Made by a program: the position numbers and the translations under genes
Assembly (NCBI RefSeq): GCF_014202315.1
Contig: NZ_JACHGN010000005.1
Coordinates: forward strand, 124,001-188,000
Length of the DNA: 64,000 nucleotides
Source: Thermocatellispora tengchongensis
Lineage (GTDB): Bacteria; Actinomycetota; Actinomycetes; Streptosporangiales; Streptosporangiaceae
Direction of reading: 5' to 3'
Notes under the pieces: generated by a model
Databases searched by the model: none
Told to the model about the DNA's origin: nothing
What the model saw: only the letters and a program-made list of their open reading frames with translations
Part shown: in pieces, positions 1,014-33,086 of the stretch
How the letters are laid out: every line of letters begins with the position of its first letter
Position numbering within the stretch: the first letter of the stretch is position 1

Positions 1014-3302
1014 CTAGGCGGCGCGGTTGTAGCCGTCGCGGTCCAGCGGGCTCAGATCGGTGATGGTGTAGGTGCGGACGCTGCCCGACTTGGCCACGGC
1101 CAGCACGCCGCGCTCGGTCAGGTCGGTCAGCACCTTGTAGATCCAGCCGCGTCCGTTGCCGGTCTGGCGGCGTACCGCGGTCAGGTCCTCATCGGTGGCG
1201 GTGAAGGTCGGCCGGCCGTGCTGGTGCCGGTGCCGCAGCCAGGCATAGACCAGGTCGCGGGCGTCGGCGGGGTGCATCTTGGCCGGCGGGGTGGCCGCGT
1301 GCAGGGAATCGGCCTCCTCAGGCGTGGGCTCGGTGACGGGATCGTCGGGGCCGGCGGTCAGGGACGGGTCGGGGTCCTCGGTGCGGGCCAGCGCCTCGGT
1401 GACCACGTCCCCGGTCGCGCGCAGGTGCTCGATGAGGTCGGTGGCGCTCTGGCCGGCCTGCACCAGGACGGGCCGGTCATCGCCGCCGGGCACGGCCGGG
1501 CCGACGATGTTCTTGCGTTCCAGGGCCTCCAGCAGACGCAGGCAGTCCTGCCAGGCGATACGCAGTTTGCGCTGCAACATGGCCGGTGAGGCGTGCTGGG
1601 TGGAAATGACCAGCTCGGCGGCGTCGGCGAGCAGTTCGGCGAAGTCGGCGGCGAACTCCTCCTGCTCATCGTGCACCGCCGGCTCAACCTCGCGCGGCGC
1701 CGTACCACCCGACACCGCCACCACCGGGCGCGGCGCGGGTGCGGTGGGCCGGGCCAGGGCGGCGGTGAACGGGTCCACCTGCTTGGCGGCGGCGGGGTAG
1801 GCCGCGGCGTGGGCGGCCATCGCGGAGCGGGCCTCGCGGCTGTCACGGCCCCAGGTGTAGGTGCGCAGCGGCATCGCGTAGTGCGTGGTGCGGATGCCGC
1901 GGGCATCCAGCAGCGCCATGCCGGGGTAGTGGTCCTCCCACTCGTGCGGCGCCACATCCGCCTTGCGCTGCCGCGCCGAGACGCCGTACTTGACATCGTC
2001 GGGGTCGGAAAGGCCGAAGCACATCTTGGCCATCTGGGAGCGGAACAGGGTCGGGATCTGGGTGTAGTCCGCGCGCTGCAACGACAGCAGGACGCTGCCG
2101 CCCGCCGAGCGGATCTCCTTCAGAATCTCCCCCAAGCGTTCCTCATCCTGCGCGCCGATCTCGCTGACCAGCTTGGCGATCTCCTCGATGTGCAGGTACC
2201 AGTACGTCAGCCCGCATCCGGGCTCCCAATCGCTGTAGCCGTGCTCGGCCAGCCACTTGGTGCGCTGCGGGATCGCCTTGTGCATCGCGCGGATCAGCTC
2301 CACCGCGCCGGCCTTGGTGGTCTCGAACCGGTGCAGTCCCTCGCGCAGCGGCCCCATCGTCTGATCGTCCTTGGAGATGTCGATTGAGAACACCGCCGCG
2401 TCGTGGCGGGTGATGACCTCCCCGAAGATATTCCACGCCCCGCCGATGCTCTTGCCGGACCCGGTGCGGCCCATGATCTGCAAGTGGTGGCCTACGAACC
2501 GGTATTCGACGGGGTCGCCGTCCTGGTAGACACCGATGCGCAACGGCTTGTCGATGGAGGCACCGGGGTGGGAGGGGCCAGGCCAGGGGATCGGCCGGCG
2601 GATGGTGGTGGGGTCGGAGACCGTCATGTACGCCCGATCGGCGCGATCGTCGTCGCGGGCCACGGTCACGCTGCCGGGCGGCAGTTGCATGCCCGACTCC
2701 AGGCGATCGGTGGCCTTGATGGCGTCCTCGGCGGTCTTCTCCCCCGGCGGTAGCTGCATCTGGCCCTTGACCTTGTGGTCGGTGACCTCGATCGCCCGCA
2801 CCCGCGCCCCCTTCAAACCGGCCTGCTCTTTGGCCCGGTTGAACAGCGTGCCCAGCGCGTCCCCGCCGCCGCTGTCCTCCTCGCCGGTGGTGCGGCGGAT
2901 GACGGTGCGGATGTTCCACGAGATCGCCAGGGTGGCGCCGCCGAAGAACAACGCGCCGTGCGTGATCGGCGCATCCAGGCCGGTGATGGTGGCGGTGGTG
3001 AACCACGCGCTCGCCGCCGCGGTGGTGACGGTGGCGTGCACGCGTCCGATCAGGCGCCGCTGGTGGCTCACGGCCCAGGTCAGCGCCGTGAGCACGGTAG
3101 AGCCGAGGGTGCAGCCGACCGCCGCCCACGTCACCGCGGGCGGCTGACCCCACCACACGTGCGACAACGCGCCGGCGGCGGCCTCGATGCCCAGCACGGC
3201 CCACGGCGGGACCAGCACACCGACCTTGGAGACCGCCGAGGCAACCAGGCGGTCCATCGTCGCCTCCTGCACCAGTTGCAGGGACGGCTGCTTGCGTGAC
3301 AT
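1014..3302 (-). CDS. traB: TraB-type FtsK-like conjugative DNA translocase
   Basis: This is the motor of actinomycete conjugation, which moves double-stranded DNA between hyphae. The 762-residue protein has two to four hydrophobic segments in residues 20-135, then an FtsK-type ATPase with Walker A GRTGSGKS near residue 280 and a Walker B-like segment YLHIEEIAKL near 375. The C-terminus (about 675-755) looks like a winged helix, as expected for the domain that reads clt repeats. The ATG overlaps the upstream stop as TGATG; a GTG one codon earlier is also possible. It is the last gene of the coupled transfer operon, and the GTGACAG array lies just beyond its stop codon. Confidence 0.92.
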   Translation of the reverse strand: MSRKQPSLQLVQEATMDRLVASAVSKVGVLVPPWAVLGIEAAAGALSHVWWGQPPAVTWAAVGCTLGSTVLTALTWAVSHQRRLIGRVHATVTTAAASAWFTTATITGLDAPITHGALFFGGATLAISWNIRTVIRRTTGEEDSGGGDALGTLFNRAKEQAGLKGARVRAIEVTDHKVKGQMQLPPGEKTAEDAIKATDRLESGMQLPPGSVTVARDDDRADRAYMTVSDPTTIRRPIPWPGPSHPGASIDKPLRIGVYQDGDPVEYRFVGHHLQIMGRTGSGKSIGGAWNIFGEVITRHDAAVFSIDISKDDQTMGPLREGLHRFETTKAGAVELIRAMHKAIPQRTKWLAEHGYSDWEPGCGLTYWYLHIEEIAKLVSEIGAQDEERLGEILKEIRSAGGSVLLSLQRADYTQIPTLFRSQMAKMCFGLSDPDDVKYGVSARQRKADVAPHEWEDHYPGMALLDARGIRTTHYAMPLRTYTWGRDSREARSAMAAHAAAYPAAAKQVDPFTAALARPTAPAPRPVVAVSGGTAPREVEPAVHDEQEEFAADFAELLADAAELVISTQHASPAMLQRKLRIAWQDCLRLLEALERKNIVGPAVPGGDDRPVLVQAGQSATDLIEHLRATGDVVTEALARTEDPDPSLTAGPDDPVTEPTPEEADSLHAATPPAKMHPADARDLVYAWLRHRHQHGRPTFTATDEDLTAVRRQTGNGRGWIYKVLTDLTERGVLAVAKSGSVRTYTITDLSPLDRDGYNRAA

Positions 3303-3676
3303 CACAGATCGACCTTCCCCTTGTACTCCTTGCGGTTCTCGGCGCGTCTCTCGGTCATGGCCTCCAGGAACTCCTGCCGGAACTGCATGTTGAACTTGAC
3401 CGCCTCAGCCGAGATGCCCTGAGCCAGCTCCCGGGCGTCGGCCAGGTGCCGGGCCACACGCCACGCGCGGGCGCGCACGTCGATGCCCAGCAACAGCGGG
3501 TGGCCCTTGAGCTGGCTCATCGCCGACTCGGCGGTGGATTCGGCCGTATCCAGCTCACGCGCCAGATCGTGCGCGAAACGCTGGGTGGCGACGGTGTAGG
3601 CGGCGATCTTCGCCGCGACCTTGCCGTGGAACTCGATGCCTGCGATCTCATCGAGCCGGGTCTGTCCGGTGCCCAT
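3302..3676 (-). CDS. transfer-operon protein, paralogue of the next gene
   Basis: A 124-residue, largely helical, charged protein. The start was set at MGTGQTRLDE because GAGGAGG lies eight bases upstream; the open frame extends further but into unlikely sequence. It shares a pattern with the neighbouring 103-residue product: GIEF, then AMS(Q/S)(L/M)KGHxLLxGxD, then RAxRVAxxLxxARxLA. The two genes therefore arose by tandem duplication. No membrane segment is present. The stop overlaps the traB start, so its level is tied to TraB. Function is unknown; a TraB accessory protein is plausible from position only. Confidence 0.75.
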   Translation of the reverse strand: MGTGQTRLDEIAGIEFHGKVAAKIAAYTVATQRFAHDLARELDTAESTAESAMSQLKGHPLLLGIDVRARAWRVARHLADARELAQGISAEAVKFNMQFRQEFLEAMTERRAENRKEYKGKVDL

Positions 3677-4572: not shown

Positions 4573-5564
4573 CAGGCCACCTCCCCACCGGCGGCGGGTC
4601 CGCCATGACGGGCGGCCTCGGCGGCGAGTGCGTCGCGCACGGCGCGGGCGTCGTCCATGCCGCACCGCAACGCCCGCTGGATCTTGTAGGCACTGGGACT
4701 CGGCGGAAGCTCGCCGGCCGCGATCAGCGCGCGGGTTCGCGCAAGGTGCTCGTTCTCCGCGGGAGAGGTTCGCCTTACCGGATCACCGGCGTTGCCGCTG
4801 TACGTAAGGCCGGTAAGGCCGCGGGTGTCGCGGTCGTGGTCCAGCCCGGCGAACGCGGCCAGGATGATCGGCAGCGCGGTGACGATGGCCACCGCGACGA
4901 TCGGCCCCAGGATGTGCAGCACCAGCCGCGAGAGCGAGAAGTCCTCGGCGACGCCGGGCAGGTACGGCCAGGCGTTCATGCCCAGCGTCAGCGCGAGGAA
5001 CAGCCACTCGATCCGCACCAACGCCGGCGAGGTGATCGGCTGGCCCCGGGTGCCCATGTAGGCGCGGGCACCCACCACGACCAGCAGCGCCAGGGACAGG
5101 AACGGCTCCACCAACCAGGCGAACAGCCATCCCGGCGACCACGCCGGCGCGCCATCGGCGGCGAAGCGCTGCACGCCCGCGGTGGACCAGGCCAGCGCCA
5201 GCGTCAGCGACACCATCGCGACCGTGACCAGCAGCCGCCGCATCCGCGCGGCCTGCCACGCCCGCATCGCCGGATCGCGGGCCAGCTCATGCAGCCGGGC
5301 GGCCTCGTAGGCGGCCTTACGGCGCCGGCGCACCTTGACCGTGTCCAGCAGGAACGGCGTGTCATCACCTTGCAACGCGGCCAGCGCGCGGGCCTCGGCC
5401 ACCTCGGCGCGCAGCCGCTGCACGCGCCTGGTGTCCCCGCTCGGTGCCACCGGGCGGGGTGAAGGCGCGGGCGGTGCGTGTGCGGCGACGTGGCGTTCCA
5501 GGTCGGCCAGGCCGCGGGAGATGTCCTCGGGGGACGGCTCAGGGGTCGGGGTCGTGATGCTCAT
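4572..5564 (-). CDS. DUF2637-like polytopic membrane protein of conjugative elements
   Basis: A 330-residue protein. The N-terminal 100 residues are soluble and rich in Ala, Pro and Arg. Four hydrophobic segments follow at about 107-133, 145-168, 183-202 and 213-240 (ILGPIVAVAIVTALPIILAA). The soluble C-terminal 90 residues include SPSAYKIQRALRCGMDDARA, which resembles a helix-turn-helix-like module. This architecture fits the DUF2637/SpdB-like proteins next to TraB in actinomycete integrative elements, thought to help plasmid spread through the mycelium. The start ATG follows GAAAGGAGG. It begins the chain of overlapping genes that ends in traB. Confidence 0.75.
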   Translation of the reverse strand: MSITTPTPEPSPEDISRGLADLERHVAAHAPPAPSPRPVAPSGDTRRVQRLRAEVAEARALAALQGDDTPFLLDTVKVRRRRKAAYEAARLHELARDPAMRAWQAARMRRLLVTVAMVSLTLALAWSTAGVQRFAADGAPAWSPGWLFAWLVEPFLSLALLVVVGARAYMGTRGQPITSPALVRIEWLFLALTLGMNAWPYLPGVAEDFSLSRLVLHILGPIVAVAIVTALPIILAAFAGLDHDRDTRGLTGLTYSGNAGDPVRRTSPAENEHLARTRALIAAGELPPSPSAYKIQRALRCGMDDARAVRDALAAEAARHGGPAAGGEVA

Positions 5565-6576: not shown

Positions 6577-7106
6577 CACGCCACCTCCGTGCGCGGGCGC
6601 TGATCCAGCAGGTGTGCGGCGAAGTAGCGAACAACATCGGCCAGAACGGGCTCGCTCAGCATGCTCAGCCACCAATCCGGCTGGGTGTCCTTGGGAATCC
6701 GCATGGCCTGGCACAGGTCGGCGAAGGTGCCGACGCGAATCCGGGTCGGCAGCCCGTAGGCCGCCTCCAGGTCGGCGGCCAGGGCGGTGCGGTCGTGGTA
6801 GCCCCGGATGTCCAGGAACGAGCCGCCCGGGGTGATGACCCCCACGTGCGTCCACTCCCAGGCATCCGCACGCCGCCGCTCGACCAGGCCGAACGGCCAG
6901 CCGGTAGCCTCGCGCAGGGCCGCTGCCAGCAGCCAGCAATAGCCCCAGGCGAAGAACTCGTCGGCGTTGTCATCGATCACGCCGGGGCGTAGGACAACGC
7001 GCGTGAGGCCACGGCGGGTGGTGGGCTTGGCCGGTGCGAACACCACCTCCACCTCACCGAAGGGCCGACCGGCGGCGGCCCTGTCCAGGTGCGGATAGCG
7101 GCTCAT
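6576..7106 (-). CDS. possible papain-like (Cys-His-Asp) protein of the element
   Basis: A 176-residue soluble protein. GYCWLLAAALREATGWPFGL places a cysteine at residue 57 at the start of a helix. EWTHVGVITPGG puts a histidine at 87 and SFLDIRGYHD puts an aspartate at 99. This order and spacing, C then H then D in a strand-turn context, resembles papain- or transglutaminase-like domains seen in actinomycete plasmids, phages and toxins. Catalysis is an inference. The gene overlaps whiB at its 5' end and the next gene at its 3' end, so it is a core operon member rather than an isolated toxin. Confidence 0.65.
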   Translation of the reverse strand: MSRYPHLDRAAAGRPFGEVEVVFAPAKPTTRRGLTRVVLRPGVIDDNADEFFAWGYCWLLAAALREATGWPFGLVERRRADAWEWTHVGVITPGGSFLDIRGYHDRTALAADLEAAYGLPTRIRVGTFADLCQAMRIPKDTQPDWWLSMLSEPVLADVVRYFAAHLLDQRPRTEVA

Positions 7107-7480
7107 CAGGCCACCTCGCGCGGCGACCACGCCACCGGGTCGGCGGGGCCGGGTAGGGAGGCGATCTCCTCGGCGGTCAGCCCCGCCCACACGCCCACCT
7201 CGGGGCGCGTGTCCAGGGCGTAGAACAGGCACGACGCCCACACCGGGCAGTCCGCGCACACCTCACGCGCCACCTGCACGCGCGCCTCCCGCTCCTCGGC
7301 GGACTCGTCGGCGAACAGGTCCGGGCCGGTGTGCAACTCGGGATCGAACATGCACGCGGCGTTCTCGGCCAGGTGCCGCGGCATTCCGGCGGTGACGGCG
7401 GCCAGCAGGATCAGCGCGGCGCGGTCCCGCGCAGGCGCCGGCGTCTTCGCTCGGAGAGGCGAGCCGACTTCATGGGGCAT
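7106..7480 (-). CDS. WhiB-family iron-sulfur transcription factor
   Basis: A 124-residue WhiB-like protein. The four cluster-binding cysteines are C43 (in AACMFDPELH), C75, C78 and C84 (VCADCPVWASC), followed by the turn motif GVWAG at 96-100. The family binds a [4Fe-4S] cluster and works with the principal sigma factor. The C-terminal basic DNA-contacting tail seen in many WhiB proteins is weak here (WSPREVA). It is the first gene of the overlapping transfer operon, so it probably regulates element functions. The start ATG follows AAGGAG by about ten bases; a shorter form is possible. Confidence 0.88.
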   Translation of the reverse strand: MPHEVGSPLRAKTPAPARDRAALILLAAVTAGMPRHLAENAACMFDPELHTGPDLFADESAEEREARVQVAREVCADCPVWASCLFYALDTRPEVGVWAGLTAEEIASLPGPADPVAWSPREVA

Positions 7481-7571
7481 GATGGTTGGGCTCCTTCACT
7501 GGGAGTGGGGGCGCGCCCGGTGCGGCGGGTCTTGGCGGATTGGCCGCCCGGTGCGCGCCCGTCTCGCTTGG

Positions 7572-7736
7572 TCAAGCAGGCTTCGGCTTGGAGACGTAGG
7601 CGCCGCCGGGGATGCGGACGAACCGCGTGCCGGCGTCCTTGTGGATCAGGTGCAATCCGGCGGTGCGGTCACAGGTCAGGGACTCACTGCCGTCGTAGGC
7701 GATGAACTCGATGCCGCACTTCTCCTTGTCGGTCAT
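7572..7736 (-). CDS. 54-residue protein, first of two leader-element minigenes
   Basis: The product is MTDKEKCGIEFIAYDGSESL continuing to GGAYVSKPKPA. AAGGA lies seven bases before the ATG. The sequence IEFIAYDGSE resembles IQFYSPDGSE of the 54-residue product at 7863-8027. The genes have the same length and each is preceded by a tRNA-minihelix-like element, so they may be distant duplicates. The protein is predicted small and beta-rich with two cysteines. Function unknown. Confidence 0.6.
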   Translation of the reverse strand: MTDKEKCGIEFIAYDGSESLTCDRTAGLHLIHKDAGTRFVRIPGGAYVSKPKPA

Positions 7737-7789
7737 GCCGTGTCCTTGGTCCTTTCGGCGAGGGGAGATACCGGCCGGTTGACCGGAGT

Positions 7790-7831
7790 GCCCTGGCGGG
7801 GAGTCGAACCCCGCCTTGCGACCATCAGGGC
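7790..7831 (-). other. tRNA-minihelix-like element, copy 1
   Basis: Read on the minus strand, 42 bases fold as GCCCTG...CAGGGC (six pairs), a ten-base linker containing ATGGTCG, and a T-arm with canonical loop TTCGACT inside a GGCGGGG/CCCCGCC stem. There is no D-arm, anticodon arm or CCA end. It lies 53 bases upstream of the 54-codon gene starting at 7736, in the same sense. It could be a transcribed leader structure, a relic tRNA or a terminator without a U-tract. Confidence 0.55.
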
Positions 7832-7862
7832 GGCAAGAGGATCAGTTCGGGCGGATGTCGGG

Positions 7863-8027
7863 CTAGCAGTCCCAGCAGGGCCACGGGCCGATGCCGTAGA
7901 CGATGACGGTGCGTTGACGCAGGTCACGGCGCAGGTGCCGCATGGCCGCGATCCATCTCGGGCAGTCGCCCGTGTAGGTCTCGCTACCGTCCGGGCTGTA
8001 AAACTGAATGGCCTTGCGCCGCTTCAC
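7863..8027 (-). CDS. 54-residue basic protein, second leader-element minigene
   Basis: A GTG start (VKRRKAIQFYSPDGSETYTG) lies eight bases after GAAGGAG. The protein is basic in the middle (RWIAAMRHLRRDLRQR) and ends IVYGIGPWPCWDC, with three cysteines in total. It has the same length and the same F-x-Y/S-x-DGSE segment as the product at 7572-7736. The second minihelix-like element stands 36 bases upstream. It could bind nucleic acid given its charge, but no family is recognised. Confidence 0.6.
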   Translation of the reverse strand: MKRRKAIQFYSPDGSETYTGDCPRWIAAMRHLRRDLRQRTVIVYGIGPWPCWDC

Positions 8028-8063
8028 GATCCGAACTCCTTCAGGTGTGGCGATGACAGCAGC

Positions 8064-8104
8064 GCCCCGGCGGGGAGTCGAACCTCGCCTACGACCATCG
8101 GGGC
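8064..8104 (-). other. tRNA-minihelix-like element, copy 2
   Basis: This is the second copy, 41 bases, read on the minus strand. GCCCCG...CGGGGC replaces the GCCCTG...CAGGGC helix of copy 1, a compensatory T-A to C-G change. The linker again contains ATGGTCG, and the T-loop TTCGACT is identical. The T-stem GGCGAGG/CCCCGCC has one A-C mismatch. It precedes the 54-codon gene starting at 8027. Covariation between two copies argues that the fold is maintained. Confidence 0.55.
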
Positions 8105-8120: not shown

Positions 8121-8294
8121 CTAACCGACGTTGCCGACAAAAGTGGCCAACGCATCGGCCACCGTCATCAGCCCGTTGAACGCGCTGGTAGCCAGGCTCG
8201 CGGCCCTTTCGGGCTGTCGGACAACGAACACCAGAACGAGGCCCAGCAGAGCGAACAGCAGTAGGCGGCGCACTGGCTTGCGGTCGGAGTACAC
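8121..8294 (-). CDS. 57-residue single-span membrane protein
   Basis: A GTG start (VYSDRKPVRRLLLFALLGLV) follows AAAGGAGGG by eight bases, the strongest ribosome-binding site in this stretch. Residues 10-25 form a hydrophobic membrane helix after a basic N-terminus, so the C-terminal half (ERAASLATSAFNGLMTVADA) is predicted outside. It could be a small spread or holin-like protein. It is separated from its neighbours by hairpins and is probably expressed on its own. Function unknown. Confidence 0.62.
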   Translation of the reverse strand: MYSDRKPVRRLLLFALLGLVLVFVVRQPERAASLATSAFNGLMTVADALATFVGNVG

Positions 8295-8339
8295 GAGTGG
8301 GTCCCTCCTTTCATGGCAGCCTGCGGGTTCAACCCCAGT

Positions 8340-8378
8340 CAGGGGCGGGGCATGGCCCGGCACCGGCCTCCGCCCCTG
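8340..8378 (-). terminator. hairpin after the 59-residue gene
   Basis: CAGGGGCGG (8340-8348) and CCGCCCCTG (8370-8378) form a nine-pair stem with further pairing in the loop. It begins immediately after the stop codon of the leftward gene at 8379-8558. There is no U-tract, which is common for actinomycete terminators. Confidence 0.5.
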
Positions 8379-8643: not shown

Positions 8644-8778
8644 CTACTTGAGGAGCACGCTGCCGACGCCCTTGCAGACCGCGCACACCTTGATGAGCGG
8701 GGTGAGGTGGTCGCGCCCCGAGCCCTTGCACGAAGCGCACTTGACGACGTGGCCCTCGGGCTTCTGGTTGTCGCTCAT
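8644..8778 (-). CDS. 44-residue DnaJ-type zinc-finger miniprotein
   Basis: The whole protein is one zinc module. CASCKGSG and CAVCKGVG are separated by 11 residues, matching the paired CxxCxGxG motifs of the DnaJ cysteine-rich domain. GAAGGAG lies a few bases before the ATG. It is the soluble counterpart of the membrane-anchored finger encoded at 459-713. In DnaJ two such pairs hold one zinc; here one pair set is present, enough for a single zinc. Its role in the element is unknown. Confidence 0.68.
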   Translation of the reverse strand: MSDNQKPEGHVVKCASCKGSGRDHLTPLIKVCAVCKGVGSVLLK

Positions 8779-9133
8779 GGTGATCTCCTTCGATGTGGTG
8801 GTCTTGCGTGCCCGCCCGGGACTCGCACCCAGGGGTCTGCTGGTCGGGCTGGCGGGCCGGGCGAGAGGTCCGGCCCGCCGGTGAGACAGGACGCGTGAGC
8901 GATGCGCGGGTCATCGCCCGCGCGGGCCGCCTTATTCGGTGGGAGGCGGTGGCCCATATGCAGTTCCCAAGAAGCGAGTGCGACAGCCCGTTGGCGCGCG
9001 GCGTGAGCCGCCTTCCCAGGTCTTCCGGCTGCGCGATGAACCACCTTAAGGCAGTCCATCTGTCTCATGACAGTAGGCCGTGCGCGGGCGAGCGTCAACC
9101 CACTGCCTCAAGGCAGTTGAGTACGCTGACCGT
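8779..9133. promoter_or_regulatory. divergent control region of the conjugative element
   Basis: No gene is seen here. The region separates the leftward mini-gene and transfer genes from the rightward gntR gene. It holds a GC-rich hairpin (8851-8879), a CCTTAAGG-centred palindrome with the half-site AAGGCAGT (9048-9055), and the full dyad at 9102-9117. The shared AAGGCAGT half-site suggests that one regulator acts at two places. Confidence 0.5.
9102..9117. promoter_or_regulatory. palindromic operator of the gntR gene
   Basis: ACTGCCT-CA-AGGCAGT is a perfect seven-base inverted repeat. It lies 17 bases before the GTG start, between a likely -35 region and the TACGCT -10 hexamer at 9122-9127. 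That position suits repression. A GntR-type protein made from the adjacent gene is the natural candidate to bind it. Confidence 0.6.
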
Positions 9134-9677: not shown

Positions 9678-11060
9678 ATGCCGGTCAGGTCTGTGAACGA
9701 CAAGTTGGCTCGGTTGATCAACGAAGCCGGTTACTCACACAAGTCGTTCGCCCGCGCGGTTCGAGACACCTCGTCCGAAGCAGGCACACCTATTGGATGC
9801 GACCACACATCTGTCAGCCGGTGGCTCAACGGCGTCAAGCCACGTGCGGATGCGGCCCAAGTGATCGTCACGACGTTGAGCCGCGCACTCGGGCGGGCGG
9901 TGACACTGGCTGACGCCGGGCTCGCCGCGGCTGAGCGGCTACCGCTGGATCTGGGACTCTCTGTCCCTCAGGCTGCCGAAGACGGCATCGAGACGGTATC
10001 CCGACTGTGGCAGGCAGATCTCAACGAGGCTTCTGTCGTCCTACGGGAGCAAGTCAACCCCGCCGCGTGGAACGAAGCTTCCCTGACCTGGCTGCTATCC
10101 CCATCCATTACGCCGGCGCAGGTACGGGATGGTCGCCGAGTCGGCCAATCGGACGTTCAGCGTTTTCAGGCAACCATTGGCCTATTCACCCAGATGGATA
10201 ATCGCTTTGGCGGTGGGCACGCAAGGCACGCACTGATTCAATATCTATCGAGCGACGCCCCGCAACTACTGAAAGGAAACTTCAACGAGACTACTGGACA
10301 CATCCTCTTCTCCGCCGTCGCAGAAGCGACACTGTTAGCGGCCTGGATGTCTTACGACAGCGGCTTGCACAGTCTGGCTCAGCGCTACTTCATTCAGGCT
10401 CTATCGCTAGCAAGAGCGGGTGACGACCGCCTCTTGGCTGCGAGCATCCTAGATGCCATGAGTCACCAGGCGACGTTCATGGGCCGATTTCGTGAGGCAG
10501 CCAATTTGGCACAGGCTGCGCGTCAAGGCACCCGAGGCATTGCTACGCCAACGCTAACAGCCCATTTCCTAGCCATGGAGGCTCGTGCACTCGCCCGACT
10601 TGGAGATGCCCGCGCATGCGATAGAGTCCTCTCGCAAGCAGTAACAGAGTTTGAGCGTCGCAACCCAGACAACGACCCTGAATGGATTCGATACTTTGAT
10701 GACGCGGAGCTAGCAGCCGAATTCGGGCACTGCTTAAGAGACCTCGGCAGGCCGGTGAACGCCACACAGTACGCAACTCAGTGCTTAGGCAGCATAGACG
10801 GCGAGACGTATCAGCGTAGTGACTTCTTCGCAACCATGGTGCTCGCCGATGCCCACTTGGCCGCTGGAGACGCAGAACAGGCATGCACGGTCGCGCTTAA
10901 AGCACTCCGGCTAGGTGACCAACTTCGTTCGTCAAGATGCCTTGCCTACGTGCAAGAATTCTCGAAACGACTGGCCCCCGCAGCATCGTCGAGCGCTCTG
11001 CGGGGGTTTCAGGAGGAAGCTATACAATTTTCACTGTGGCAACAGATCGCGTATCAGTAA
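9678..11060 (+). CDS. XRE-like helix-turn-helix protein with TPR domain
   Basis: A 460-residue protein starting MPVRSVNDKL after GAGGAG. The N-terminal 80 residues form a divergent HTH (KSFARAVRDTS...CDHTSVSRWLNGVKPR), and residues 200-450 consist of helical tetratricopeptide-like repeats (for example YDSGLHSLAQRYFIQALSLA). This architecture is common for actinomycete regulators of development and secondary metabolism such as NsdA-like proteins. Codon usage is visibly less G+C-biased than in the surrounding genes, suggesting separate acquisition. It converges on and overlaps by seven bases the kinase-like gene at 11054-12001, with which it may form one cargo module. Confidence 0.78.
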   Translation: MPVRSVNDKLARLINEAGYSHKSFARAVRDTSSEAGTPIGCDHTSVSRWLNGVKPRADAAQVIVTTLSRALGRAVTLADAGLAAAERLPLDLGLSVPQAAEDGIETVSRLWQADLNEASVVLREQVNPAAWNEASLTWLLSPSITPAQVRDGRRVGQSDVQRFQATIGLFTQMDNRFGGGHARHALIQYLSSDAPQLLKGNFNETTGHILFSAVAEATLLAAWMSYDSGLHSLAQRYFIQALSLARAGDDRLLAASILDAMSHQATFMGRFREAANLAQAARQGTRGIATPTLTAHFLAMEARALARLGDARACDRVLSQAVTEFERRNPDNDPEWIRYFDDAELAAEFGHCLRDLGRPVNATQYATQCLGSIDGETYQRSDFFATMVLADAHLAAGDAEQACTVALKALRLGDQLRSSRCLAYVQEFSKRLAPAASSSALRGFQEEAIQFSLWQQIAYQ

Positions 11061-12001
11061 GGCTCCCAATTGCGCAGGCCAGTTGCCCCACTCTTCAGAT
11101 CATCGATACGCTTTCTAACCTCGGCTGCAACTCGCTCGTCTTGGGCTGCTTTTTGACTCAGCCACGTCACCATCAGGAATTCACGAATGTCGGCGAGCAC
11201 AGTATAGCCGTCCCACGCCATGACATCGAAGCCATAGATTTGGGCGAACGCCTCATACTCCTCGCGAGTATGCCAACCAAACCGCTCATAGTACAGGGCG
11301 GTGAGAACCAGGTCCCATTCGCGAGGGCCAATAGCCACGCCATCGAGGTCAATAAGCTTGGGGTGACCCTCACGGTCGCGAATCACATTCCCTACGCTGG
11401 CATCACCGTGAATGACACCGGACGACAAGGAGAAGGAGAGACCGGAATACGCTTCACGCAGTTTCACCAGCCTACTCCGAAGATATTCATCATCTTCGGG
11501 GGTGAACCACCCGTTTGAGTTGATGCGGCGCTCCACCCTGGAAAAGGGATCGAGGGGCTTGAGACCGAGAGCCCCAGCAGGGGCGTCAAGCTCATGCAGC
11601 TTAACGAGAAGTTCGGCCACATCTGCCGGCGTACCGTAATCCTCTACATCGGTAAGACTTTCCCAGAAGGTCACCGCGTGGTCGGCGATGATGCATGGTT
11701 GTTCGATTCGAAGGGCACGGATAGCGGGGAAGTCGATTTCGGCCAGCCATCGAGATACCGCTACCTCTTTCCGCACATCGGCGAGGTAGGCGAGCGTGCG
11801 CGACACCCTGACGATGACAGGCTCTCGAAGTCGATATACGGCATTCTCCCCCAGTCTGATCAACTCTGCCCCTTGGGGGTCCAAGCCAGCGCGAGCACAC
11901 GCGCGCTCCATCGTTGCGCGACTCGTCTCGGCGGTGAAGTCCTCAGAGCCTCGCGCTGCGGGCTGGGTCTCTGCCATACGTTTGACGCTACCGTTCGCCA
12001 T
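11054..12001 (-). CDS. aminoglycoside-phosphotransferase-fold kinase
   Basis: A 315-residue protein of the APH/choline-kinase fold. The catalytic loop is VIHGDASVGNVI (HGDxxxxN type) and the metal-binding motif is KLIDLDGVAIGPREWDL. The N-lobe includes LGENAVYRLREPVIVRVSRT. The start ATG (MANGSVKR) follows AGGAG by six bases; a longer upstream frame is unlikely. Targets of this family range from antibiotics to metabolites and proteins, and the substrate cannot be told. It is lower in G+C than its neighbours and lies beside the attachment site, so it is probably element cargo. It overlaps the convergent XRE/TPR gene. Confidence 0.82.
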   Translation of the reverse strand: MANGSVKRMAETQPAARGSEDFTAETSRATMERACARAGLDPQGAELIRLGENAVYRLREPVIVRVSRTLAYLADVRKEVAVSRWLAEIDFPAIRALRIEQPCIIADHAVTFWESLTDVEDYGTPADVAELLVKLHELDAPAGALGLKPLDPFSRVERRINSNGWFTPEDDEYLRSRLVKLREAYSGLSFSLSSGVIHGDASVGNVIRDREGHPKLIDLDGVAIGPREWDLVLTALYYERFGWHTREEYEAFAQIYGFDVMAWDGYTVLADIREFLMVTWLSQKAAQDERVAAEVRKRIDDLKSGATGLRNWEPY

Positions 12002-12216
12002 GAGATCTCCTAACGAAGTCCGTATCGCGCCACCGAGATGGGCCAGGGAACGACGAAGGCGCTTCGCCGCACGTCTCGCTCCCGGAACGCGCTCTCGCCC
12101 CTCAGAAGCGCTCTCATCCTTGATCATTACCCAATGCTTCCCCGGCGACATCGCAACATCGCGCGTCGTGCCGGGTTGTACCACGTCAGCGACATTGCCA
12201 AGGGCTGTAGCACACT

Positions 12217-12264
12217 CGACTCATAATCCGTAGGTCGTGGGTTCAAGTCCCACCCGCCCTACCA
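12217..12264 (+). repeat. 3' fragment of a CAT-anticodon tRNA gene, element attachment site
   Basis: The anticodon loop CTCATAA, variable loop, T-arm (GTGGG TTCAAGT CCCAC), acceptor strand CCGCCCT and encoded ACCA are all present up to 12264. The sequence upstream (AGGGCTGTAGCACACTCGA) cannot make the acceptor, D-arm or anticodon 5' strands. This is therefore the duplicated 3' half left when an element integrates into a tRNA-Met gene. The complete tRNA should lie at the left end of the element, outside the window. Confidence 0.82.
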
Positions 12265-21026: not shown

Positions 21027-21231
21027 TCAATCTTCACGCCCTGTGGATGCGAGATCATAAGCGGGATCGCTCACAAGCCACTCACACGCCGCTCGCATGC
21101 CGTCCTCCTGTGGCCGGCCTCCCGGCCGGCTTCATGGCCTCCTCCCGTGAGGCATCGCCCCGGTACAGAATGCCCGCGGTGCCGGCATAAACCGGTTCCG
21201 GGGACATCGGAGGGAGATGGAGACTTCTGCC

Positions 21232-22170
21232 ATGCGGCATCTGCCTTTCCCGAAGATTCCCGTTGCGTCGCGCGCCGTCGTCGCCTTCAACGGCGAGTGG
21301 ATCGCGACCGAGAAGATTCACGGAGCGCAACTGGTCATCGCCTTCGACGGCCGTGAATTCCATATCGGCAAACGCAAAGCCTGGCTGGGCGGGGAGGAAG
21401 CGTTCTTCGGCTGGCAACTGCTGCGCGGCCAACTGGAACAAGCGGCCAGGACGGCTTTGTCGCTGGGCGGCAGCGCCGTACGCATCTATGGAGAACTGTA
21501 CGGCGGCCACTATCCGCACGCCGACGTCGTCCCGGTGCCCGGGGTCAGTGCGGTGCAAACGGGGGTCTGGTACAGCCCGGACCTGCGTTTCGCGCTCTTC
21601 GACGTACTGCGGCACGAGGGCCCGGACGACACCGGCGTCTTGCTGCCGTACGCCGACGTGGCAGCCGTGGCGTCGTCGGCCGGGCTCGATGTGGTGCCGC
21701 TGCTCGGCAGAGGGCCCCGCCACGAGCTGGACGCCCTGCCTCTGCGGTTCCCCACCCGGGTGCCGCGTCTGCTCGGGCTGCCGGACATTCCGGGAAACCA
21801 TGCGGAAGGGATCGTCATGCGTCCTGATGTCTCCGCTCCGGCCCAGCGACGTCCCATCATCAAGATGAAAATCGAAGAGTTCGACGAATTGCGCTTCGAT
21901 GAGAGCCGGCCCTGGAACCCGCACACGCGCCTTTCCCTGGATGATCTGCGAAGACTCGCTCACGCCATGGTGAACAAGCCCCGCCTGGACAGCGCGCGGT
22001 CGAAGACGGGGCCCGGGTCCTTCCATGAGTTCGTGGACGAGGTCGTGCTCGACGTCATGGTCGATCTGACCGACGCCTTTCCCGCAGCCATGGCGGCCCT
22101 CGACGGTGCTGCGGAGGACGAGCTGAACGCCCACCTGAGGGACACGGTCCGGGCGAGCTGCCGCGAGTGA
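21232..22170 (+). CDS. Rnl2-type RNA ligase family protein
   Basis: A 312-residue nucleotidyltransferase-fold ligase. Motif I is EKIHGAQLVIAF with the lysine that would be adenylylated. Motif III is RIYGELYGG, motif IV is EGIVMRP and motif V is IIKMKIEEF. This set is that of T4 Rnl2-like RNA ligases, which seal RNA nicks through ligase-AMP. A family-like C-terminal helical extension follows. The start MRHLPFPKIP was chosen because GGAG stands nine bases upstream; an ATG five codons earlier is possible. No RNA-repair partner (kinase-phosphatase, RtcB, Hen1) lies nearby. It is transcribed alone, divergent from the LAL gene. Confidence 0.82.
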   Translation: MRHLPFPKIPVASRAVVAFNGEWIATEKIHGAQLVIAFDGREFHIGKRKAWLGGEEAFFGWQLLRGQLEQAARTALSLGGSAVRIYGELYGGHYPHADVVPVPGVSAVQTGVWYSPDLRFALFDVLRHEGPDDTGVLLPYADVAAVASSAGLDVVPLLGRGPRHELDALPLRFPTRVPRLLGLPDIPGNHAEGIVMRPDVSAPAQRRPIIKMKIEEFDELRFDESRPWNPHTRLSLDDLRRLAHAMVNKPRLDSARSKTGPGSFHEFVDEVVLDVMVDLTDAFPAAMAALDGAAEDELNAHLRDTVRASCRE

Positions 22171-22241
22171 CTCACTCCGCGACCGCGCGACCGGCGATGG
22201 GCCTGCCCAGCGCCCGCCTGCGCACCGCCGTCGGCCTTCGG

Positions 22242-22739
22242 CTACGGACGGAGATCGACCCAGGCCGCCACCTCGTCGCCGGTCTGGGTCAGGGTGGCGC
22301 CCAGACCGGCGAGGATCTCGCGCATGGGGGTGTTGCCGGCGGTCGTGCTCGCGAACAGCCGGCGGGCGCCGCGAGCGCGTGCGAGGCCGACGAGCTGCCT
22401 GAGCACGGCGGTACCCACGCCCTGGCCCCGGTGCGAACGCCCGATCCAGATGCCGGCCTCCACGGCGTCGCGGGCGTCGTCCAGCGGGCACAGCCTGGCG
22501 GCGCCGGCCGCGCGGCCGGTGACCAGGATCACGTAGGTGTCCTCCACGGGTTCGGGCGCCAGCGCCCTCGACCGGTGGAAGCGCAGGAAGGCCCGACGCC
22601 GCTCGCCCGTCCATCCCCCGGGGCCCTCCACCGGAGGCATCACCTCAAGCGGATCCGCGTCGGCCACCGCGCATTCCAGCAGTTCCGGCAGCAGGCTCTC
22701 GTCCAGCCGCGGCAGCTTCACGTCCGGCCGGAGGCTCAC
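22242..22739 (-). CDS. GNAT-family N-acetyltransferase
   Basis: A 165-residue acetyltransferase. The acetyl-CoA loop is RGQGVGTAVLRQLV, preceded by AGIWIGRSH and followed by RLFASTTAGNTPMREILAGLG, which is the RimJ/RimL-like pattern for acting on amino groups. The GTG start overlaps the stop of the hydrolase gene as GTGA; an ATG six codons upstream inside that gene is an alternative. Being coupled to the dienelactone-hydrolase-like gene suggests co-expression. The substrate cannot be predicted. Confidence 0.78.
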   Translation of the reverse strand: MSLRPDVKLPRLDESLLPELLECAVADADPLEVMPPVEGPGGWTGERRRAFLRFHRSRALAPEPVEDTYVILVTGRAAGAARLCPLDDARDAVEAGIWIGRSHRGQGVGTAVLRQLVGLARARGARRLFASTTAGNTPMREILAGLGATLTQTGDEVAAWVDLRP

Positions 22740-23473
22740 GACGGCTGCCGGAGGCATTCGGCGAGGAACCGCTCCAGGCTCCACCAGGCACGCTCTGCGG
22801 ACTGCCGGCTGTACTGGATGCCGAGCTCCGGGCTGTTCGCCTGCTCGGCCATGAAGGAGTGGAAGGTGTGGCCGAACACCTGGAACTGCCAGTCGGCGCC
22901 GGCCGCGGTGAGCTCGGCCGCGAGCGCCGTGACGTCCTCCGGCCTGGCGAAGGGGTCCTCCCAGCCGTGATAGACGGCGACCTTGCACGAGGTCGGCCGC
23001 GGCGTCCAGCCCGGCGGCGGCGTCAGCACCCCGTGGAAGCTCGCCACCCCTCGTACCGCGGCGCCGGTCCTGGCCATGTCCAGCACGCACAGCCCGCCGA
23101 AGCAGAACCCGATCGCCGCCAGCCGGGAGGCGTCCACCTCGGGCAGTTCGGCCACCGTGGAGACCACCGTGGCCAGGCGGTCCGCCAGCATCGCCCGGTC
23201 CTCCAGGAACGGTCTCATGAGCGCGTCGAACTCCTCCGGCGTGGAGCCGCTGACGCCCTTGCCGTACAGATCCATGACGAACGCCTGATACCCCCAGGGC
23301 AGCAGCCGCATGGCCATCTCGACCAGGACGTCGCTCCTGCCCTCCGCGCCGTGGCACACCAGCACGGTCGGCGCAGGCGCAGGGGTCGCATCCCCACGCA
23401 GCAGCAGCCCTTCCATCACCGCCGAACCGTGACGGTACTCGACAGGCACGGTGACCACGGCACCGGTCTGCAT
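22736..23473 (-). CDS. dienelactone-hydrolase family protein
   Basis: A 245-residue alpha/beta hydrolase of the DLH family. The nucleophile is a cysteine in GFCFGGL (about residue 124), the acid is the aspartate of GWEDPFA, and the histidine is in FGHTFHSFM. The N-terminal strand TVLVCHGAEGRSD forms the oxyanion side. Such enzymes cleave lactones or other small esters in the cytoplasm. The start follows an AGGAG at 12 bases. It forms a two-gene unit with the acetyltransferase. Confidence 0.82.
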   Translation of the reverse strand: MQTGAVVTVPVEYRHGSAVMEGLLLRGDATPAPAPTVLVCHGAEGRSDVLVEMAMRLLPWGYQAFVMDLYGKGVSGSTPEEFDALMRPFLEDRAMLADRLATVVSTVAELPEVDASRLAAIGFCFGGLCVLDMARTGAAVRGVASFHGVLTPPPGWTPRPTSCKVAVYHGWEDPFARPEDVTALAAELTAAGADWQFQVFGHTFHSFMAEQANSPELGIQYSRQSAERAWWSLERFLAECLRQPS

Positions 23474-31145: not shown

Positions 31146-33086
31146 TCACCCCACAGGCGCTCCGAAGTACGCCGCCCAGCCGGAGCTGATGGCGGTGCCC
31201 GAGCCGAACTTGTTGCCGCCCCTGCCGTTCCAGACGGTCAGCACTCCGGTCTCCGCGTGCACGGCGCCGATGTCGGTACGGCCGTCCTTGTTGACGTCTC
31301 CCAGCGACATCAAGGTGGCGGCGTAGGGCCCCCAGCTGGGGCCGATCTCGATGGCACCGGTGAAGTCGTTCGCGCCTTCGCCGTTCCAGATGTGGAGTTT
31401 GTTGGTGTCCTTCCTGACGGCCATCAGGTCGCTGATCCCATCGCCGTCGAAGTCGCCGCCGATCGGCCGGGTGTAGGCGGTCCAGCCGCCGCCGACGGTG
31501 ATGCCCGGGCCGAACTGGTTGGCGCCCTTGCCGTTCCAGATGGTCAGCTTTCCGGTCTCCGCGTGCACGGCGCCGATGTCGGTACGGCCGTCCTCGTTGA
31601 TGTCTCCCAGCGACATCAGGGTGTCGGCGTACGGTTGCCAGCCGGAGCCGAGTTCGACGAAGCCGGTGAACTCGTTGGCGCCTTCGCCGTTCCAGATGTG
31701 GAGTTTGTTGGTGTCCTTCCTGACGGCCATCAGGTCGCTGATCCCATCGCCGTCGAAGTCACCGGCGATCGGCCTGCTGTAGGCGGTCCAGCCGCCGCCG
31801 ACGGTGGTCGCCGGGCCGAACTTGTTGTCTCCTTCGCCGTTCCAGATGGTCAGCCTTCCGGTGGCGGTCGAGAAGAGGTCGCCCACGCCGTCGGCGTCGA
31901 AGTCCGGGGTGGCCGACGCGCCCACCCCCGCGTAGTGCGGGTTCTGGGCGTGCGTGAGGGTCTCCCAGCCCAGGAAGTGCGACACTCCGGCGGGACGGTT
32001 CTCCTCGATCCACCGCGTGGCGTAGGGGATGTCGTCATATCCGAGCCGGTGGTGCAGTGCGTTGTACGCGACCTCAAGGGGCGCCCCGAGGCCGAGCTCG
32101 ACCTTTCCTCCGCACAGCCACGACGGCACCGTCCCGCCCAGTTCCAGACGGGCGTGGAAGTCCATCGCGAACCGCAGCCGGTGCTTGGCCGTGGCGTACA
32201 GGTCAACGCCCTGGAGCCGGGCCGTCTCCGCGACGTGGGAGATGGCGGCGAGACCCCATCCGGTGTGCCCGAAATCGCGGCAGGTCTCCTGAGTCAACCC
32301 GTCCACGAACGTGGTCTGCCCGTGCCAGTAGTCGATGATCTCGGCTTTGGTGTTGTAGTCGCTCTTCGGCGGCGCCTTGGGCAGTGAGCCGTCCGTCGTG
32401 AGGTAGATGTAGGCGGGCAACCGGCCGCGCCAGGTGCTGATCGCCTTGTCGAAGGAGACGCGGTCGTCGAGGTGCACGGCGATGCCGATGGCGGCATCGG
32501 TCATGATCAGTTCCCAGTTGCCGTTGTTGTTGGGCCGCCCCGCGATCAGGATCGGGAGGTACACCGTGCGGAGCTTGCCGGCGAACCGGCCCGCCTGGGT
32601 CCAGCCGGAGTAGGTGTGCTTGATCAGCTCGGCGGCGCGGGAGAAGTTGGCGCCCGCCCAGCCGGTCTGCAGCGGTGCGTTGTCCCCGGTGTGCCCGGTG
32701 ATCACGGCCGACCAGGCGTCCATGATCTGGATCGCCTTCTCGGCGTAGCGGGCGTCCTTGGAGAGATACCACCGCAGGGCGAGCGTGTAGGCCGCCATCG
32801 CGTCCTTGCGCTCGTCCGAGCACCCGTGGTCGGGATTCGACACGGGCCCGCAGTTCACGACGGCGCGTGGCTTGGGCGTGTAGGAGAGCGAGGCGTAGGG
32901 GCTGGCCTGCAGGGCGCTCCAGGCGGACTTCCACGGCTCGTTACCGAGGTTGGCCCTGACGAAATCGAGCTGAGCCCGGCTGACCAGCACGCCGGGGTGC
33001 TTGAACACGGCCGCCTGCGCGGGCTGCGGAACGGCCAACGCGGCGACCACGAGCGCGAAGACGGCGACAAAGCGAGCGAGACGCAC
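31146..33086 (-). CDS. secreted alginate-lyase-like protein with FG-GAP repeats
   Basis: A 646-residue secreted protein. The signal peptide is residues 1-25 (FVAVFALVVAALAVPQPAQA). Residues 30-370 match the alginate-lyase (PL5-like) all-helical barrel: HPGVLVSRAQLDFVRANLG, AEKAIQIMDAWSAVITGHTG, the NNNGNWELIMTDA active-site strip and HTGWGLAAISHVAETARLQG. Residues 385-646 are FG-GAP/VCBS calcium-binding blades (FDADGVGDL, FDGDGISDL, INEDGRTDI, VNKDGRTDI). The GTG start follows AAAGGA. It is divergent from the two-component operon at 33273, which likely controls it. The substrate is probably an acidic polysaccharide, not proven to be alginate. Confidence 0.82.
   Translation of the reverse strand: MRLARFVAVFALVVAALAVPQPAQAAVFKHPGVLVSRAQLDFVRANLGNEPWKSAWSALQASPYASLSYTPKPRAVVNCGPVSNPDHGCSDERKDAMAAYTLALRWYLSKDARYAEKAIQIMDAWSAVITGHTGDNAPLQTGWAGANFSRAAELIKHTYSGWTQAGRFAGKLRTVYLPILIAGRPNNNGNWELIMTDAAIGIAVHLDDRVSFDKAISTWRGRLPAYIYLTTDGSLPKAPPKSDYNTKAEIIDYWHGQTTFVDGLTQETCRDFGHTGWGLAAISHVAETARLQGVDLYATAKHRLRFAMDFHARLELGGTVPSWLCGGKVELGLGAPLEVAYNALHHRLGYDDIPYATRWIEENRPAGVSHFLGWETLTHAQNPHYAGVGASATPDFDADGVGDLFSTATGRLTIWNGEGDNKFGPATTVGGGWTAYSRPIAGDFDGDGISDLMAVRKDTNKLHIWNGEGANEFTGFVELGSGWQPYADTLMSLGDINEDGRTDIGAVHAETGKLTIWNGKGANQFGPGITVGGGWTAYTRPIGGDFDGDGISDLMAVRKDTNKLHIWNGEGANDFTGAIEIGPSWGPYAATLMSLGDVNKDGRTDIGAVHAETGVLTVWNGRGGNKFGSGTAISSGWAAYFGAPVG
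31225..31890. repeat. 306-bp near-identical tandem repeats inside the lyase gene
   Basis: The phrase beginning CCGTTCCAGA recurs at 31225, 31531 and 31837, exactly 306 bases apart. Long blocks between copies are identical, including a stretch of more than 60 bases coding FDGDGISDLMAVRKDTNK. Each unit encodes 102 residues, two FG-GAP blades. Such identity means recent duplication or gene conversion, and copy number may vary. Confidence 0.8.

Follow-up and report, generated by a model that had tools for sequence, protein, structure and literature searches.

The locus described here raises the question of what tRNA-like half-molecules, with an acceptor helix and a T-arm and no anticodon arm, are doing in front of small genes in an actinomycete chromosome. 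In the window (the whole stretch of 64,000 nt that was analysed), the preliminary description had placed two tRNA-minihelix-like elements, and both were confirmed, on the minus strand. Element 1 (7790–7831, minus strand) is a class I element matched by model R1 with 64.3 bits (E 1.2e-19) and by the structural descriptor with a score of 29.4; read from 7831 to 7790, its sequence is GCCCTG-ATGGTCGCAAG-GCGGGG-TTCGACT-CCCCGC-CAGGGC, with A73-C74 on its 3′ side at 7789–7788. Element 2 (8064–8104, minus strand), also of class I (R1 63.7 bits, E 1.9e-19; descriptor 23.5), reads GCCCCG-ATGGTCGTAG-GCGAGG-TTCGACT-CCCCGC-CGGGGC from 8104 to 8064, is followed by G73-C74 at 8063–8062 and has a match in Gordonia phage VanLee. 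The chance level of the descriptor per 64 kb of shuffled sequence is 0.2 at scores of at least 22, 0.05 at scores of at least 24 and none at scores of at least 26. The two copies share a D-loop-like linker of 10–11 nt (GATGGTCGYA, with an extra A in one copy) and, as had been stated, the T-loop TTCGACT; the T-stem of element 2, however, contains one A.C mismatch that had been missed, and because of it a search that tolerated no mismatch recovered copy 1 only. Folded as single sequences with ViennaRNA, the modelling of which does not extend to the pseudoknot, elements 1 and 2 were unexceptional (z −1.0 and +0.2), and this kind of folding gave little information. By themselves the two window copies are weak evidence, and it is their homologues that settle the matter.

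A third, related element, overlooked by the preliminary description, lies at 8810–8849 on the minus strand and belongs to class II (model R2 63.7 bits, E 4.7e-13). Its sequence is GCCCG ACCAGCAGACC CCTGGG TGCGAGT CCCGGG CGGGC, followed by A73-C74 at 8809–8808, and over 45 nt it shares 97.8% identity with Actinomyces phage xhp1. Near 8325–8375 no acceptable acceptor/T-arm pairing was found, and no further element was counted there. A coding role was also considered, given that the ATG of ATGGTCG opens a short frame overlapping the next start (ATGA, GTGA) in both window copies; it was rejected, as the frames differ by a 1-nt indel and the class II and D-arm variants have no ATG at that place.

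The genes around the elements all lie on the minus strand; the 54-aa and 44-aa genes were taken from the list of open reading frames, and the 57-aa gene was read from the sequence. A 54-aa gene with an ATG start (7572–7736) begins 53 nt past element 1 and another with a GTG start (7863–8027) begins 36 nt past element 2, in agreement with the 36–53 bases and the same sense given for two 54-codon genes in the preliminary description. The stop of the latter gene lies 31 nt before element 1, and the two proteins are distant paralogues (34% identity, E 5e-5). Element 2 is itself preceded, at a distance of 16 nt from the stop codon, by a 57-aa gene (8121–8294, in the frame of ORF 8121–8363) whose start was picked by the Shine-Dalgarno sequence AAGGAGGG, and element 3 is followed by a 44-aa gene (8644–8778; phrog_9961, E 9e-5). 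The next gene in the same operon encodes a WhiB-type regulator (7106–7480; Pfam Whib, E 2e-13). The stretch 7501–7574 of the minus strand, which separates the WhiB gene from the last 54-aa gene, forms a very stable hairpin (−43 kcal/mol, z −4.4) and has an 80% match to a Nonomuraea plasmid, where it stands upstream of a NUDIX gene; it is possibly another leader RNA.

The carrier appears to be mobile. A tRNA-Met 3′ copy at 12201–12261 on the plus strand (61 nt; Rfam tRNA, 35.9 bits) is identical in its 3′ part to the intact host tRNA-Met (G000:C5:115131-115204) and would be the right end (att), and a transfer-like gene of FtsK type lies at 1014–3305 on the minus strand (Pfam FtsK_gamma, E 3e-12). 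On the basis of the tRNA-Met remnant, the FtsK-type gene and the WhiB gene, we infer that the elements are carried by an integrative element that measures about 21 kb and has entered tRNA-Met in the 11.65-Mb actinomycete genome. No integrase was identified in the part of the integrative element that lies in the window; the gene adjoining the tRNA-Met 3′ copy (11054–12261) is phosphotransferase-like (APH). ARAGORN called no tRNA in the window and Rfam called only the one at 12201–12261, so that the three elements were called by neither; on these grounds and in the absence of an anticodon arm, an ordinary or degenerate tRNA gene was rejected.

Homologues proved to be numerous. The collection reached 314 elements of classes I and II; their carriers are phages and integrative elements, for the most part those of actinomycetes. 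Scanning viral contigs with a pattern yielded 84 stretches, from which 55 sequences were picked for pairing to form alignment A2. Across 84,980 species, scanning yielded 86 stretches, every one from Actinomycetota according to its title, namely from Streptomyces, Nonomuraea, Herbidospora, Streptosporangium, Brachybacterium, Corynebacterium, Microbacterium, Tsukamurella and other genera. Within the family of the host, R1 matches occurred in 7 of 121 genomes, three of them strong, including that of the host itself, as mobile DNA would give. Class II, with the linker ACNRGCAGACA, is a sister class that was reached through element 3, and viral records some 50 kb long, Streptomyces phage Endor1 being one, carry 7–10 class II copies each. 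A third form, found in Gordonia phage VanLee, has a true 4-bp D-arm (GCTC-GGGT-GAGC, GCCC-TGGT-GGGC) and still no anticodon arm. Bacteroides phage BF1-TP2 has one class I element immediately upstream of an Erf-like gene, and the family therefore extends beyond Actinomycetota. Class I elements are also present in the AT-rich viral contigs L016, L018, L025, L028, L042 and L072, and among them are variants with an additional G-1:C73 pair or a lengthened linker; a search by DNA similarity for the hosts of L016 and L028 gave no match. In VanLee (L120), the gap 32094–32196 contains a mimic in which GCCCTGGTGGGCACGCAGGAG, a segment of the D-arm, occurs twice, as a natural insertion variant, and this phage, nearly all gaps of which contain a mimic, has a gene for a Ro-like RNA-binding protein at 21192–22808. 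The partners of Ro, the bacterial Y RNAs, include tRNA-like modules.

The homologues demonstrate that the fold is maintained. In class I, standard pairs make up 96.5% of the pair cells, compared with 66.4% after shuffling, with a covariation score of 0.723 as opposed to 0.154, and double-sided changes are found at all five acceptor pairs and three T-stem pairs; RNAalifold, unaided, returned the same 5+7 structure. All five acceptor pairs are present in 151 of the 158 class I elements that had been selected on linker and T-loop alone. All 57 class II sequences pair two nucleotides of the linker with positions 60 and 59 of the T-loop (A-U, G-C, C-G and U-A at the first, C-G and G-C at the second). 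These positions played no part in selection, and slid controls gave 25–48% paired cells. The equivalent of tRNA position 18 covaries with T-loop position 55 (G/T in 76, A/G in 22 and A/T in 1 of 99 sequences; Fisher 4e-21, a value that overstates independence since the sequences are related); the pair types recur across different hosts and acceptor contexts, and phage Predator (L135) has both forms together. With the T-loop left free, C56 and A58 were constant in 99 of 99 sequences, whereas G19 belonged to the search pattern. In class I, AG at the end of the linker stands opposite CT of the T-loop in 97 of 119 elements. The acceptor and T helices would stack to 12 bp in class I and 11 bp in class II, with the acceptor joined to the T-arm by a linker of 10–11 nt in place of an anticodon arm. 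Given the covariation of the helices, of linker with T-loop and of the 18-55-like pair, the elements fold a tRNA-like elbow and carry its contacts (compare PMC4810234). The compensatory acceptor helix and the tRNA-half mimic in a repeated leader, proposed from two copies, are thus strongly supported, and the conserved helix that homologues were expected to have is present in them and covaries.

The ends of the elements resemble those of pre-tRNAs. Among the 314 elements, R73 is present in 306 and C74 in 309, but C75 in only 23; G1 is kept by 140 of the 154 elements in class I and by 96 of the 99 in class II. As a control, C74 is encoded in 41 of 41 host tRNA genes, including 29 of 29 that lack an encoded CCA, and the elements therefore share the short 3′ mark of the host pre-tRNAs. 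Avoidance of a −1/73 pair gave no signal over the 314 elements. The anatomy of an RNase P substrate is present, with G1, R73 and C74 beside the acceptor/T stack and with the elbow, and the host encodes a class A RNase P RNA and an RNase Z-like protein. Recognition of the elbow is common to many tRNA-binding factors (PMC4810234), and the anatomy alone therefore does not single out RNase P. Of the partners named in the preliminary description, RNase P is now the best candidate, while EF-Tu is an unlikely one, because the acceptors vary freely, with no synthetase identity, and CCA is not encoded.

The position of the elements is as regular as their structure. For 194 elements, the stop codon of an open frame lies within 120 nt upstream in 86% (median 8 nt) and a start with a Shine-Dalgarno sequence within 120 nt downstream in 78% (median 43 nt); both occur together in 71%, compared with 7% on the antisense strand and 18% at random sites. 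The distance to the upstream stop peaks near 6–8 nt, the next start is usually about 30–55 nt past the element, all in sense, and at each of the 50 loci with at least two elements only one strand is used. In the small-gene operon of VanLee, 17 of 18 gaps contain a sense element (16 by descriptor, 1 by R1) and none an antisense one, and overlapping genes have no element between them. Konstantine has seven elements between genes, and in Nonomuraea aurantiaca, where near-identical copies lie inside one integrative element, five stand in a row; behind one of these class I elements is a gene very similar to the 54-aa gene at 7863–8027. In Endor1, 9 of 13 gaps contain an element, about 33 or 50 nt from the next start. 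The association with 54-codon genes had been drawn too narrowly: the element is a general separator after a stop codon, among genes of many sizes. Its homologues are not always followed by small ORFs, as had been envisaged, but by genes of any size, and the coincidence of the two 54-codon genes is therefore incidental.

Other signals were noticed in the same operons. The four Endor1 (L330) gaps without a mimic (627–685, 1076–1140, 2770–2831 and 5031–5087) have, ahead of the gene that follows, a recurring TGTGACAGTG-like motif, which is perhaps a phage promoter, and promoters and mimics seem to alternate in the gaps of this phage. The leader upstream of the first window element (about 8900–9050, minus strand) resembles one in Nonomuraea aurantiaca (L273:3940-4080) that holds TTTGAGAACTCAACAG, which we take to be like boxA of rRNA leaders. 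At 21 of 211 loci a motif of this kind occurs in the 1.2 kb ahead of the first element, whereas about 2 such loci are expected from the overall density of the motifs, which suggests rRNA-like antitermination of element-bearing operons.

We consider it probable that the elements are tRNA punctuation units of phage and integrative-element operons and are processed as pre-tRNAs. The mimics, of about 40 nt, would be transcribed within long polycistronic mRNAs and would fold once the terminating ribosome has left, whereupon the pre-tRNA maturation machinery of the host would take them for pre-tRNAs. The cut by RNase P would fall 5′ of G1, a few bases past the stop codon of the preceding gene; a 3′ nuclease, RNase Z or another, would probably cut after residue 73. 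In this way one transcript would be divided into several mRNAs that each possess a short leader and a Shine-Dalgarno sequence of their own, and a tRNA-like fragment would be freed, presumably to the benefit of the phage or integrative element. Some points run contrary to punctuation: gaps without an element occur in the same operons, the class II stack is 11 bp rather than 12 bp, a −1/73 pair is not avoided, and the elbow is read by other factors besides RNase P. With somewhat less assurance, we also lean towards the wider view that a large RNA family of at least three classes, built on a pseudoknotted minimal elbow, makes an mRNA dicer of the RNase P and RNase Z of the host and so provides systematic operon punctuation in bacteria without functional tRNAs.

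The same spacing could be explained without such processing. If the mimic were left uncut, or cut on one side only, it might serve as a rigid tRNA-like block after the stop codon, stabilising or insulating its neighbours by stopping 3′ exonucleases, by capping the 5′ end of the next mRNA or by isolating the translation of the next gene. The tight spacing to the upstream stop, with its peak near 6–8 nt, and the fairly fixed distance to the next start of about 33 or 50 nt in Endor1 are in keeping with such a block, for which, however, a plain hairpin would suffice, with no need of G1, R73, C74 and a full elbow; we regard it as unlikely. An uncut mimic might alternatively be a cis-regulatory platform, comparable to an operator or a T-box, on which a tRNA-recognising factor such as the ribosome, a synthetase or a phage protein controls the next gene. 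Its place 30–55 nt before a Shine-Dalgarno start would suit this role, as would an elbow that is read by many factors (PMC4810234). Nevertheless, no alternative structure or terminator is conserved alongside the mimic, the acceptors vary freely, genes of all kinds follow, and the spacing to the upstream stop is tighter than that to the downstream start, all of which makes such a platform very improbable.

Full mimicry of the elbow and the several to many copies per genome would also be expected if the released 40-nt RNA acted in trans on a host factor that binds tRNA (RNase P, the CCA-adding enzyme, an enzyme that modifies tRNA or a defence that senses it), whether as decoy or as inhibitor. 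Such a decoy would not be tied to any particular place, yet the copies occur one per gap, in sense and between genes rather than in arrays, and we consider this quite improbable. The mobile carrier, the paralogy of the two 54-aa genes and the near-identical copies within one integrative element of Nonomuraea aurantiaca might instead point to tRNA relics or to DNA-level recombination boundaries that shuffle gene cassettes, the RNA fold being a leftover. This we find scarcely credible, since unrelated phages show compensatory changes in helices and elbow, for which selection on the RNA is required, and the sense orientation is strict. The compensatory changes also led us to reject DNA binding or an attachment site as the main role. 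Punctuation through processing as pre-tRNAs is the most economical of these readings.

Punctuation by tRNAs is textbook knowledge for mitochondria; in bacteria or phages, to our knowledge, no systematic use of it has been described. What appears to be new is the family, with its fold and its setting, while the mode of action proposed is of a kind already known from mitochondria and mascRNA. In Rfam release 15, no element of the window or of five element-rich loci had a match at the gathering score, and among open PMC papers no description of such phage elements was found, in line with the preliminary description, which knew of no such system. The Endor1 paper (PMC7650747) reports tRNA genes for another phage only and mentions no intergenic or non-coding elements, and the part of the 2024 RNase P review that was covered (PMC11143913) mentions nothing like the mimics. 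Current annotation overlooks the elements, which besides being absent from Rfam release 15 are unannotated in the phage regions inspected gap by gap. If the proposed cutting is true, it accounts for the way in which phages that have dozens of tiny genes and only a few promoters obtain separate mRNAs, and RNase P gains a large class of mRNA substrates that bears on its role in mRNA metabolism. The mimics are moreover natural tRNA-elbow mimics of about 40 nt that are usable as tools.

Several known systems may be compared with the mimics. Phage substrates of RNase P listed in the 2024 review are M3 RNA, C4 antisense RNA and T4 gene 32 mRNA (PMC11143913). Like the mimics, the cutting of which is proposed here, they are non-tRNA phage RNAs; unlike them, they are single cases with other folds and form no repeated intergenic family. 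Canonical tRNA (RF00005) shares with the mimics the acceptor/T-stem stack, the T-loop, contacts of the 18-55 and 19-56 type and R73-C74. The mimics differ in having no anticodon arm, usually no D-stem and no ARAGORN call, in pairing the linker to T-loop positions 59-60, and in dividing the stack into an acceptor of 5–6 bp and a T-stem of 6–7 bp, compared with 7 and 5 in canonical tRNA. The best-scoring Rfam family for elements 1 and 2 was mascRNA-menRNA (RF01684), the 3′ module of MALAT1 and MEN beta, with 22.5 and 16.9 bits, below the gathering cut-off of 42.5. Mature mascRNA-menRNA is produced by RNase P and RNase Z. It is likewise a tRNA-like unit without a normal anticodon arm inside a longer transcript, whereas the mimics belong to bacterial phages and mobile elements, occur in many copies per genome and have a shorter linker that pairs with the T-loop. 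In mitochondrial tRNA punctuation, and in the t-elements of plant mitochondria, tRNAs or tRNA-like units between genes mark the cut sites of polycistronic transcripts. Mitochondria use mostly real tRNAs for this purpose, whereas the mimics would be dedicated cutting marks without an anticodon, in bacterial viruses and integrative elements.
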